The notes under the pieces are model-generated. The model searched no databases, was not told where the DNA came from, and saw only the letters and a list, made by a program, of their open reading frames with translations. A program made the position numbers and the translations under genes. Positions 7,209 to 11,255 of a stretch of 64,000 nucleotides of DNA are shown piece by piece; the stretch's first letter is position 1; every line of letters starts with the position of its first letter. This DNA comes from Mucilaginibacter achroorhodeus (GTDB taxonomy: Bacteria; Bacteroidota; Bacteroidia; Sphingobacteriales; Sphingobacteriaceae), in contig NZ_VOEI01000003.1 of NCBI RefSeq assembly GCF_007846095.1, forward strand, positions 1 to 64,000, in the 5' to 3' direction.

Positions 7209-8150
7209 TTAACTTAGCGCCTCGAAAGTATTGATCTTGCTCATGTCCAATACGATCCTGCCTTCTTCATCGCGTTGAAACATGGGCACAAATTTAGCGC
7301 CCCAGACCATTTCGTTAGCCTGGTAGGCAGTACGCGAATGTACTGTTTGTGAAAAGGTATCATCAAACGCCTTAAGCAGAACTGAAAAGCTTGCTTCGCC
7401 TCTTTCAAAATCTTCCCGGGTAATATCTATCAGCGGGCTATCCTGATCCAATGGGTGCACAACCGTCCAGTTAAGCGAGAGCATACTTACATTTTTACGT
7501 TCCAGGCTTAGTGGAAAAAATCGCCTCAATGGTTTGCCATCTACCAGTTCGTTATAGGAGAAAACCACTTCAATCTCCAGATCTATCAGCACATTTTTAC
7601 GGATGTTACAAAGCCTGAACATCAATCCGCGGCGGCCACCATGATAAGGGGCCACCAAAAGATTTTCGCTATACACTATCTTGGCAGTAGGCCTGGAGAA
7701 GCGCCCGTAAAGCAAACCTGTTGCCAGCGCAAATGCCAGTAAACCTAACATCGATTCAAATGCGGCAACACTGTTTGCAACAACACCCTGCGGGCTGATA
7801 TGCCCGTAACCCACCGTAGAAATGGTTTGTGCCGAAAAAAAGAAAGCATCTAAAAAATGGCTCATGCCGTTACCGCCTGAGGTACCATCAAGGCTGCTGT
7901 GGCCAATGGCTACATAAATACATGCAAATACGAGATTGGTAAATAAATAGCCGCTGAGTACTACCAACCAGAATTTAGTCCAGCTCATGGTGATAAGCGT
8001 ATGATAAGTATCAGCCGTATTAAACCGCGACATGCCCTTGCGTTTTACATTCACGGTACCATTTTTATTAAGCAAAGGCTGATTTTTGATCACCGGTTGC
8101 GGCCCAAAACCAAGGTCGTTCTCAGGATTTATTTTTTGTTCGCGGATCAT
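7209..8150 (-). CDS. Inward-rectifier potassium channel (KirBac type)
   Basis: A 313-residue inner-membrane channel. It has an N-terminal cytosolic slide helix region, a first membrane helix at about 60-82, a pore loop with the selectivity filter TISTVGYGHISP near residue 110-121, a second helix at about 128-150, and a C-terminal beta-rich cytosolic domain (about 155-300), the architecture of KirBac channels. The subunit would act as a tetramer conducting K+ inward. The gene is a single unit on the minus strand, convergent with the LutA-like gene and divergent from the trp leader. A CATCTTTG box on the minus strand (8177-8184) could be its -7 element. Confidence 0.9.
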   Translation of the reverse strand: MIREQKINPENDLGFGPQPVIKNQPLLNKNGTVNVKRKGMSRFNTADTYHTLITMSWTKFWLVVLSGYLFTNLVFACIYVAIGHSSLDGTSGGNGMSHFLDAFFFSAQTISTVGYGHISPQGVVANSVAAFESMLGLLAFALATGLLYGRFSRPTAKIVYSENLLVAPYHGGRRGLMFRLCNIRKNVLIDLEIEVVFSYNELVDGKPLRRFFPLSLERKNVSMLSLNWTVVHPLDQDSPLIDITREDFERGEASFSVLLKAFDDTFSQTVHSRTAYQANEMVWGAKFVPMFQRDEEGRIVLDMSKINTFEALS

Positions 8151-8257: not shown

Positions 8258-8288
8258 TTGCATTTGGTAAAAACAATTTCCATATTTG
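8258..8288 (+). promoter_or_regulatory. Candidate promoter of the trp leader transcript
   Basis: CATATTTG at 8281-8288 differs from the Bacteroidota -7 consensus TAnnTTTG only at its first base. TTG at 8258-8260 lies 20 bases upstream, slightly more than the usual 17-19; a TTTG at 8263-8266 is closer than usual. The leader-peptide ATG is at 8301, so transcription would begin only a few bases before it. Confidence 0.4.
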
Positions 8289-8300
8289 CCTCACAATAAC

Positions 8301-8351
8301 ATGAAAGTACAATTAAACAATAACTGGTGGTGGCTTAACGAATTATCGTAA
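8301..8351 (+). CDS. trpL: trp operon leader peptide
   Basis: ATG at 8301 opens a 16-codon frame ending in TAA at 8349-8351: MKVQLNNNWWWLNELS. Three Trp codons in a row (TGG at 8325-8333) in so short a peptide directly before trpD is the hallmark of an attenuator leader. The frame is too short for ordinary gene calling. When charged tRNA-Trp is scarce, the ribosome would stall at the TGG run; when it is plentiful, the ribosome would reach the stop codon and cover the first arm of the antiterminator, which begins one base after the stop. Confidence 0.9.
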   Translation: MKVQLNNNWWWLNELS

Positions 8352-8418
8352 GGCAACCTCATTTTTTGTTTTTTATAAAGATATTCAGGAAGGGTTGCCA
8401 CATGGCAACCCTTTTTTT
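8352..8418 (+). promoter_or_regulatory. trp attenuator: antiterminator and terminator stems
   Basis: Three complementary segments follow the leader stop codon. Arm A is GGCAACC (8352-8358), arm B AGGGTTGCC (8391-8399), arm C GGCAACCCT (8404-8412). B pairs with C over nine bases with loop ACAT (8400-8403), and the stem runs into seven Ts (8412-8418): an intrinsic terminator. A pairs with the last seven bases of B (8393-8399), so A:B and B:C exclude each other. A ribosome on the leader stop codon hides A and permits termination; a ribosome stalled at the Trp codons leaves A free to form the antiterminator. trpD starts at 8427, just 8 bases behind the T run. Confidence 0.9.
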
Positions 8419-8426
8419 ATTACCCA

Positions 8427-9416
8427 ATGAAACAGATACTCAATCATTTATTCGAACATAAGACGTTCACCCGTGAGCAGTCGAGAGATATATTGAAAGA
8501 CATCGCCACCGGCAAGTTCAACAACTCGCAAATGGCTGCTTTTATGACTGCATATTGCATGCGCAGCATTACCGTTAACGAACTGGAAGGCTTTCGTGAT
8601 GCCATGCTGGAGCTTTGCTTGCCTATAGACCTGGAAAACGGCGAATTGATCGACCTTTGTGGTACAGGTGGCGACGGTAAAGACACTTTTAATATCTCAA
8701 CACTTGCATCATTTGTAGTTGCAGGCGCAGGTTATAAAGTGGCTAAGCACGGCAATTATGGTGTATCGTCAGGGTGTGGTTCATCAAATGTGATGGAGCA
8801 TTTGGGCTACGCTTTTACTAATGATGGAGATAAACTGAAACATAGTATCGATAAAGCAAATATCTGTTTTCTGCACGCGCCATTGTTTCACCCCGCCATG
8901 AAAACTGTGGCACCTATTCGCCGGGAGCTGGGTGTAAAAACTTTCTTCAATATGCTTGGCCCGGTGGCAAATCCGGCAAAGCCGCAAAACCAGATGGTAG
9001 GCGTGTTTAACCTGGAGCTTGCCCGTATCTATGCATACCTGTACCAAAAATCTGGCGTAAAATACACCATTTTGAATGCCCTTGACGGTTATGACGAGAT
9101 ATCATTAACATGCGATTTCAAAACTTTTTCATCAGAAGGTGAAAGGGTTACGAGTGTGGAATCGCTGGGTTTCGAGAAGCTAAAAGAAGATCAGATAACC
9201 GGTGGGCATACGGTTGGTGAATCGGCTGATATTTTTATGAAAGTACTTAATGATGAAGCAACGAGTGCACAAACCAGCGTGGTGTTAAGCAATGCCGCCA
9301 TGGCCATCAAAACTATTAAACCTGATACCAGCTTTGCTGATTGTTTTTACGAAGCCGAAGAATCATTGGTAAGCAAAAAAGCGCTGAACAGTTTTAAAAC
9401 ACTTTTAGCTAATTAA
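8427..9416 (+). CDS. trpD: Anthranilate phosphoribosyltransferase
   Basis: A 329-residue cytosolic enzyme that joins anthranilate to phosphoribosyl diphosphate, the second committed step to tryptophan. The PRPP-binding loop reads CGTGGDGKDTFNISTLASF near residues 77-95, followed by AKHGNYGVSSGCGSSNVME, both family signatures. Length is usual for TrpD. The start codon lies immediately behind the attenuator terminator and has no Shine-Dalgarno sequence. It is the first structural gene of a trpD-trpF-trpB unit; trpE, trpG, trpC and trpA are not in the window. Expression should depend on tRNA-Trp charging through the leader at 8301-8418. Confidence 0.96.
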   Translation: MKQILNHLFEHKTFTREQSRDILKDIATGKFNNSQMAAFMTAYCMRSITVNELEGFRDAMLELCLPIDLENGELIDLCGTGGDGKDTFNISTLASFVVAGAGYKVAKHGNYGVSSGCGSSNVMEHLGYAFTNDGDKLKHSIDKANICFLHAPLFHPAMKTVAPIRRELGVKTFFNMLGPVANPAKPQNQMVGVFNLELARIYAYLYQKSGVKYTILNALDGYDEISLTCDFKTFSSEGERVTSVESLGFEKLKEDQITGGHTVGESADIFMKVLNDEATSAQTSVVLSNAAMAIKTIKPDTSFADCFYEAEESLVSKKALNSFKTLLAN

Positions 9417-9417
9417 A

Positions 9418-10041
9418 ATGCACATCAAGGTTTGTGGCTTAAAATTCGAAGATAACATTAAAGCGATAGGCGCTTTAGACCCTGATTATATGGGGTTTAT
9501 ATGTTATGATAGATCACACAGGTTTATCGGTGACCTTAATGAAGAGATCTTATATCACATACCTGCAGATATTATTAAAACCGGTGTTTTTGTTAATGAA
9601 GCTGCTGATGTAATAAGCAAACTGATCTATAAATATAAATTTGATGCTATTCAGTTACACGGAAATGAATCGCCTGATTTTTGCGCTTTGTTCAAACACG
9701 AAGTTGAGGTTATCAAAGCTTTTGGTATAGATAACGACTTTGATTTTGGGCAGTTGGAAGCATACAAAGAAAGTGTCGATCTCTTTCTTTTCGATACTAA
9801 AACATCCGCCCATGGTGGTTCAGGTAAAACATTCGATTGGGACATATTAACTCAGTACAAACTGGATGTGCCTTTCTTTTTATCAGGCGGCTTGAGCCCA
9901 GAGAACATCGCCAAGGTAGCAAAAATTAAACACCCAGCGTTCTATGGCGTAGATCTAAACAGCAGGTTCGAGCTATCGCCAGGACTTAAAGATATTGATA
10001 AACTAAAACAAGTTTTTTTTGAGGTGAAAAGTAGAAGCTAA
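9418..10041 (+). CDS. trpF: Phosphoribosylanthranilate isomerase
   Basis: A 207-residue TIM-barrel enzyme converting phosphoribosylanthranilate to the carboxyphenylamino deoxyribulose phosphate intermediate of tryptophan synthesis. The catalytic cysteine lies in the N-terminal motif [12 protein letters not shown] (residues 2-13); AIQLHGNE near 80 and the phosphate-binding [13 protein letters not shown] and [11 protein letters not shown] segments near 155-185 are also visible. It starts one base after the trpD stop codon, a clear sign of translational coupling. The gene that usually sits between trpD and trpF in this group, trpC, is absent here. Confidence 0.95.
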
Positions 10042-10073: not shown

Positions 10074-11255
10074 ATGAAGTACGGAGTAAACGAACAAGGA
10101 TATTACGGAGATTTTGGTGGAGCATACATACCTGAGATGTTGTATCCCAATGTTGAAGAATTACGCCGCGAATACCTGAAAATATTGGATGACCCTGATT
10201 TTAAAGCGGAGTTCGACCAATTGATGAAGGATTACGTTGGCCGTCCTTCGCCGTTGTACCACGCCAAGCGCTACTCTGAAAAATATGGTGCAAATATTTT
10301 CTTCAAGCGAGAAGATCTGAACCATACCGGCTCGCATAAAATAAATAACGCCATTGGGCAAATATTGCTTGCTAAACGCCTTGGCAAAAAACGCATTATT
10401 GCTGAAACAGGTGCCGGCCAGCACGGGGTTGCAACAGCGACAGTTTGCGCATTAATGGGCATCGAGTGCATTGTGTACATGGGCGAGATAGATATGGAGC
10501 GCCAGGCACCAAACGTTGCCCGCATGAAAATGTTAGGAGCAACAGTTGTACCTGCTACATCCGGCAGTAAGACGCTGAAGGATGCAACTAACGAGGCTCT
10601 GCGGGATTGGATAGCCAACCCTGTGGATACGCATTACATCATCGGCTCGGTGGTGGGGCCGTACCCTTATCCTGAGATGGTGGCCAAATTTCAGTCCATC
10701 ATATCTGCTGAAACTAAAGTACAGCTGAAAGAACACACCGGCAGCGAACTGCCACAATACGTACTTGCGTGTGTTGGTGGCGGCAGCAATGCAATGGGCA
10801 TGTTCTATAATTTTCTGGATGACGATGATGTTAAGTTGGTAGCTGTAGAAGCTGCAGGCAAAGGTGTGAACAGCGGGCACTCTGCCGCTACTACTGCGCT
10901 TGGGAAAGAGGGTGTATTGCACGGCAGTCGTACTATTTTAATGCAAAGCGATGACGGCCAGGTTATAGAGCCTTATTCTATATCAGCCGGTTTGGATTAC
11001 CCAGGCATTGGCCCGCAGCACGCGCATTTGTATAAAGTTAATCGTGCCCAATACGTAAGCATTACCGATGAGGAATCATTAAATGCCGGGCTGCTTTGCT
11101 GCCAGTTAGAAGGCATTATACCGGCCATAGAGACAGCCCATGCCTTGGCATACCTCGAAAAAATGACCTTTAAGAAAGATGATAACGTAGTTATCTGTAT
11201 CTCCGGCCGCGGTGATAAAGACCTGAACACATACATCAAGCATTTTGGATTTTAG
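10074..11255 (+). CDS. trpB: Tryptophan synthase beta chain
   Basis: A 393-residue PLP enzyme that condenses indole with serine. The PLP lysine is in [13 protein letters not shown] near residue 87, the phosphate-binding loop is [10 protein letters not shown] near 233, and the C-terminal segment SGRGDKD near 381 is typical of TrpB1. The N-terminus [15 protein letters not shown] also fits TrpB1, which works with an alpha subunit. trpA is not downstream here: the next gene, 218 bases away, is an ABC permease. TrpA must be supplied from another locus. It follows trpF by 32 bases and should be under the trp attenuator. Confidence 0.96.

Follow-up and report, generated by a model that had tools for sequence, protein, structure and literature searches.

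A predicted tryptophan leader-peptide attenuator in front of trpDFB in Mucilaginibacter achroorhodeus and a second one in front of trpEGC

Anatomy of the trpDFB leader

The window (the whole stretch of DNA analysed, 64,000 nucleotides from Mucilaginibacter achroorhodeus) carries trpD (8427..9416; PF00591, E 6e-61) on the plus strand as the first gene of a block, followed on the same strand by trpF (9418..10041) and trpB (10074..11255), the latter two named from the initial annotation and from their position in the operon. A short ORF, MKVQLNNNWWWLNELS, can be read directly in front of trpD (8301..8351, plus strand); it has 16 codons, from the ATG at 8301 to the TAA at 8349-8351. As had been claimed for this peptide, three adjacent Trp codons, TGG TGG TGG, are found at 8325-8333, and these putative regulatory codons form nearly invariant columns in the alignment of relatives. 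The sequence TGGTGGTGG is present in 81 copies in the 4.28-Mb genome, both strands counted, and about 0.001 copies are expected by chance in 130 nucleotides on the right strand at one given gene, even before an accompanying ORF, terminator and complementary arm A are required. Upstream of the leader lies a divergent gene on the minus strand (7209-8150), whose product contains the motif TVGYGH and is likely an inward-rectifier-type potassium channel. The same divergent neighbour adjoins trpD in many Mucilaginibacter and Pedobacter loci.

Four arms, all on the plus strand, can be delineated between the Trp codons and trpD. Arm 1, the 5′ arm of a hairpin that we call P1 (GCTTAACGA, 8333..8341), takes its first base from the end of the third Trp codon, and the 3′ arm of P1 (TCGTAAGGC, 8346..8354) makes up the first part of arm 2; eight of the nine pairs are formed, and both arms are supported by compensatory changes and by species permutation. 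The second part of arm 2 is arm A, the putative antiterminator strand (GGCAACCT, 8352..8359), identified by comparison and by its pairing with arm B. Its core GGCAACC, at 8352-8358 directly 3′ of the stop codon, is exactly where the initial annotation had placed it, and T8359 can add a G-U pair. The leader stop codon lies inside the 3′ arm of P1, and GGC is common to that arm and arm A. Arm B (arm 3; AAGGGTTGCC, 8390..8399) is shared by the antiterminator and the terminator. It is separated by the loop ACAT from arm C (arm 4; GGCAACCCTT, 8404..8413), the 3′ arm of the terminator, which is paired with B in 96% of the cells of the alignment described below. A run of seven Ts (8412..8418), kept in relatives, ends the predicted intrinsic terminator. 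The B:C stem is perfect, as previously described, but it comprises ten pairs (8390-8399 with 8404-8413) rather than nine; likewise the seven Ts are there, but the first two lie within the stem instead of following it. The distance of 8 bases from the T-run to trpD was correctly given, and 13 nt separate the end of arm C from the trpD AUG. With P1, the leader has the classical attenuator layout, in which 1:2 is P1, 2:3 is A:B and 3:4 is B:C. The initial annotation held neither P1 nor the second Trp attenuator, on trpEGC, that is described below.

The B:C hairpin alone has a computed energy of -16.9 kcal/mol, and the A:B duplex one of -13.6 kcal/mol that is reached by 0 of 200 shuffles. A simple generic terminator scan of the window did not list the B:C hairpin, probably because A-T and G-T pairs prolong the stem into the T-run.

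A predicted sigma-A -7 box, CATATTTG (8281..8288, plus strand; a near-match to the TAnnTTTG consensus of Bacteroidota), precedes the leader. The box is kept in relatives, where it is found 5-19 nt before the leader AUG and reads CATATTTG in 47 of the 71 loci with a box. Such boxes are placed at -12 to -5 relative to the transcription start (PMC9723704). Judging from the promoter box, transcription is predicted to start near 8293, which would make the 5′ UTR about 8 nt long; for many Pedobacter leaders the same reckoning gives a 5′ UTR of about 1 to 4 nt. mRNAs with so short a 5′ UTR are rare in the phylum: 5′ UTRs below 10 nt make up 3.7% in Bacteroides (PMC7366714), and leaderless mRNAs 5.5% in F. 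psychrophilum (PMC9723704). Translation initiation in the phylum usually proceeds without Shine-Dalgarno sequences (PMC9723704). The attenuator of the window is probably read from a nearly leaderless mRNA.

Conservation and covariation among trpD leaders

A scan with TrpD yielded 80 loci from named genomes, the closest of which belongs to Mucilaginibacter sp. MD40 (93% identity). The window and loci L004-L078 form a set of 76 Sphingobacteriaceae-type trpD loci. In 75 of the 76, two or three adjacent TGG codons directly precede trpD and are followed by a hairpin with a T-run (the hairpin of L020 was judged by eye, and the contig of L046 begins inside the leader ORF); the single exception is the MAG contig L076. 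Alignment with relatives had been suggested as a check on the leader, and it bears the leader out: the Trp codons and arms A, B and C are kept, with compensatory changes, in Mucilaginibacter, Pedobacter, Sphingobacterium and their allies. The observation is real and far above chance, and its conservation in relatives removes doubt. These loci also show the classical layout of Trp attenuators to be the general one throughout this branch of the Bacteroidota.

All three helices show coordinated change. The arms of P1 change in step, as in CACAACG/CGTTGTG, CATAACGC/GCGTGATG, CACAACGC/GCGTAGTG, CCTAACGA/TCGTTAGG and CACTTCGA/TCGTAGTG, with one mismatch in most. In an alignment of 70 trpD leaders, slid controls of B:C are paired in 27-67% of cells, against 96% for the true helix, and five B:C pairs are changed on both sides, giving 35 double-changed cells. 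P1 is paired in 70% of cells (slid controls, 20-52%) with 55 double-changed cells, even though two clades are shifted by one alignment column. A:B is paired in 84% of cells, versus at most 51% when slid; its 14 double-changed cells are by count alone no higher than in slid controls. For A:B, B:C and P1 alike, the true partners have a lower mean energy than all 300 species permutations. Because related sequences are not independent, these covariation numbers should be read as support and not as probabilities. A:B is the weakest of the three helices. In the Pedobacter alluvionis/borealis clade its energy is about -5 kcal/mol, which does not surpass that of shuffles, and in several Sphingobacterium it likewise fails to stand out significantly from shuffled sequence.

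The distance from arm A to the last Trp codon is nearly constant in relatives while the stop codon moves: it follows the Trp run by five codons in 49 leaders and by three in 23 others (together 72 of 74). A fixed distance to the Trp codons combined with a mobile stop is expected if stalling at Trp matters. The distance between terminator and trpD varies from about 8 to more than 400 nt among relatives, with the terminator kept, which fits control of transcription better than control of trpD translation. If the leader instead acted on translation, the B:C hairpin would hide the trpD start, and the short distance from arm C to the AUG in the window speaks for this; in L042, L045 and L048, however, the hairpin and T-run lie up to several hundred nucleotides before trpD and are therefore too far away to hide a start codon. 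We regard a translational role in place of transcription control as extremely unlikely.

The leader peptides share patterns such as LNNNWWWLNE, VNTIWWWHNAIA and SNKAWWWHNE. At least one Asn codon before the Trp run (8313-8324 in the window) is kept in the trpD, trpE and Bacteroid-trp leaders, as in NNNWWW, NNTWWW and VNTIWWW, and these codons lie outside all helices found. A conserved residue whose codon is free of pairing could point to an activity of the released peptide itself, which might also act in trans, as is reported for peTrpL of Sinorhizobium (PMC7298713). The other residues, however, vary in sequence and in length, and the C-terminal part follows the pairing constraint of P1, and we find such a second role of the peptide very unlikely.

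Ribosome position and the choice between helices

For 74 leaders, folding was repeated after removal of the RNA that a ribosome would cover or have behind it, the front edge of the ribosome being placed 15 nt downstream of the P-site codon's first base, a standard toeprint distance. Before arm C is made, A:B is formed in 99-100% of the leaders with the ribosome at any of the three Trp codons, in 3% with the ribosome at the stop codon, and in 42% with no ribosome, where P1 is the competitor. The initial annotation had proposed that A is complementary to B and that a ribosome at the stop codon would block it, and the folds agree on both counts. In the window leader without a ribosome, A:B is favoured over P1 before C is made, so that an untranslated window leader might, in this model, read through, unlike that of E. 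coli.

Once C is present, the terminator prevails at equilibrium in every ribosome state, and therefore the decision must fall during transcription, as a kinetic switch. This dominance, together with the stability of B:C on its own, would also suit a stem-loop that is only a constitutive terminator, with the Trp-rich ORF being incidental. Yet conservation across genera extends to the Trp codons, P1 and A, which change together with B and C, and the upstream gene at 7209-8150 is on the opposite strand, so that none of its transcript needs to be terminated at B:C. We consider a purely constitutive terminator exceedingly improbable.

We are instead highly confident that the leader controls trpDFB by ribosome-mediated transcription attenuation, with charged tRNA-Trp as the signal that it senses. 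RNA polymerase would start near the leader AUG, and the ribosome would load almost at the 5′ end. When tRNA-Trp is uncharged, the ribosome would stall on the UGG codons with its front edge at about 8337-8343, covering much of arm 1, hindering P1 and leaving arm A free; A would then pair with B as soon as B is made, C would be without a partner, and transcription would proceed into trpD. When Trp is plentiful, the ribosome would reach the stop codon at 8349 and cover A, B:C would pair, and transcription would end in the T-run. P1 would be a competitor of A and might in addition serve as a pause hairpin.

What the analysis shows is the anatomy of the leader, the conservation and covariation of its parts, and the fold computed for each state. 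A Trp-rich short ORF (WWW in 16 codons) lies directly upstream of biosynthetic genes, and a predicted intrinsic terminator with a covarying 10-bp stem and T-run lies before the first of them; comparison and folding point to an exclusive antiterminator whose access would be set by ribosome position, more weakly so in two clades. From these we infer where transcription starts, that it actually terminates, that stalling and pausing take place, and that the leader responds to Trp. The interpretation as an attenuator is well supported by comparison, from which its function is deduced.

Known tryptophan leaders and the two halves of the pathway

The initial annotation treated leader-peptide attenuation as an enterobacterial speciality, a view that is outdated. 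Weinberg et al. (2010, PMC2864571) had already included Bacteroid-trp RNA (RF01692) among probable cis-regulatory RNAs of Bacteroidetes, and leader-peptide attenuation has been proposed for Flavobacterium and F. psychrophilum (PMC6414381; PMC9723704). At gathering level, no Rfam family matched anywhere in the entire window, T-box, riboswitch and proteobacterial Trp_leader included. In a permissive search, the best relevant match was Bacteroid-trp, aligned over the whole model with 33.3 bits (E 0.04 to 0.1), under the gathering score of 49. Scores in the window's own family are about 29-48 bits, with relatives of the same genus reaching up to 48. Among 392 genomes of the phylum surveyed at a cut-off of 49 bits, 41 exceed it, mostly from one family, which we take to be Flavobacteriaceae. 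The public RNA family thus misses the Sphingobacteriaceae branch. The window leader resembles Bacteroid-trp in its Trp-codon leader, the hairpin right after the Trp codons, the same order of parts, the terminator with a T-run, the position before trp genes, and the phylum. It differs in that the best 30 RF01692 matches sit before trpE or trpB whereas the window leader precedes trpD of a split operon, and in that the RF01692 stem after the Trp codons is longer than P1 and only partly the same; moreover, the model ends at arm B and omits the terminator partner, arm C. We do not claim formal RF01692 membership for the window at 33.3 bits, below the cut-off of 49. We describe the window leader as a Trp leader-peptide attenuator, with Bacteroid-trp as the family nearest to it.

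The trp leader of E. coli has a Trp-codon leader peptide, arms pairing as 1:2, 2:3 and 3:4, and an intrinsic terminator before the first structural gene. The window leader is alike in peptide, arm layout and terminator position, but has three adjacent UGG codons instead of two, and its arm 1 begins inside the last Trp codon. It also differs from E. coli in that P1 and A overlap by only three bases and in its predicted 5′ UTR of about 8 nt.

The statement that the attenuator acts on trpDFB alone is true of this copy; as a picture of the pathway it is incomplete, since trpEGC has its own attenuator. In the genome of the window, trpE, trpG and trpC lie on another contig and are preceded by the leader MNKTINHNNWWHLTKVRQPDSFVNLQH and then a terminator (locus L084, G000:C12, complement 9441-9579). 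Like the trpD leader, this trpE leader has Trp codons, a hairpin after them, arms A, B and C, and a T-run. Unlike the trpD leader, it has two Trp codons, a 27-residue peptide, arm A within the ORF, GC-rich arms (GCCGG with CCGGC), and a conserved AAACC between A and B. It gave no match to the RF01692 model. Of 30 trpE loci examined, that of the same genome included, 29 have a terminator and a leader in which two or more Trp codons are present. The trpE arms also covary (GCATCGGG/CCCGATGC/GTATCGGG in L113 versus GCGTCGGG/CCCGACG in its relatives), and for A:B the true partners are again lower in mean energy than all 300 species permutations. We further noticed a stretch, AATCAA..TAAACCTA / AATCAACCAAAACC, between A and B in most of the trpE leaders L086-L114, which is absent from the trpD leaders; its AAACC might base-pair with the GGTTT in which arm C ends, and the stretch is otherwise unexplained.

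In all Sphingobacteriaceae loci examined, trpD is the first gene of its block. In most other Sphingobacteriaceae loci whose contig extends far enough, trpA follows trpB; it does not do so in L004-L007 and L050, nor in the window genome, where trpA stands alone (L085, G000:C8:136470-137165) with no leader or terminator in front and is the only trp gene without an attenuator. In the five outgroup loci (L079-L083) the operon is unsplit, trpEGDCFBA, and a WWW leader stands in front of its trpE; the split operon therefore has two attenuators and the unsplit operon one. Two features deserve attention, namely that each half of the split trp operon carries one attenuator copy and that the leader is predicted to be almost leaderless. 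In a literature search of partial coverage, no paper was found that joins Pedobacter, attenuator and leader peptide, and twin attenuators over a split trp operon seem to be undescribed in the literature searched. Tentatively, and at somewhat less than even chances, we propose that the trpEGC and trpDFB(A) halves of the Sphingobacteriaceae type carry two Trp attenuators that share a layout but evolve separately, with different arms and Trp-codon numbers that would allow them to be set to different Trp thresholds, both on near-leaderless mRNAs in which ribosome loading at the 5′ end would be part of the timing of the switch. The system lends itself to clean tests of ribosome-polymerase coupling and of attenuation, in a phylum that usually lacks Shine-Dalgarno starts.

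Beyond the trp genes, the regions upstream of hisG and ilvD were looked at for leaders. Upstream of hisG (L146, G000:C9:42343-42801, minus strand) there is a short His-rich ORF, MEKYKLHHLHLHHHHFVVNR, preceded by a -7 box. A CACCAC-TTT-GTGGTG hairpin is also present there, with no clear T-run terminator, and this element is possibly a His leader of another type.
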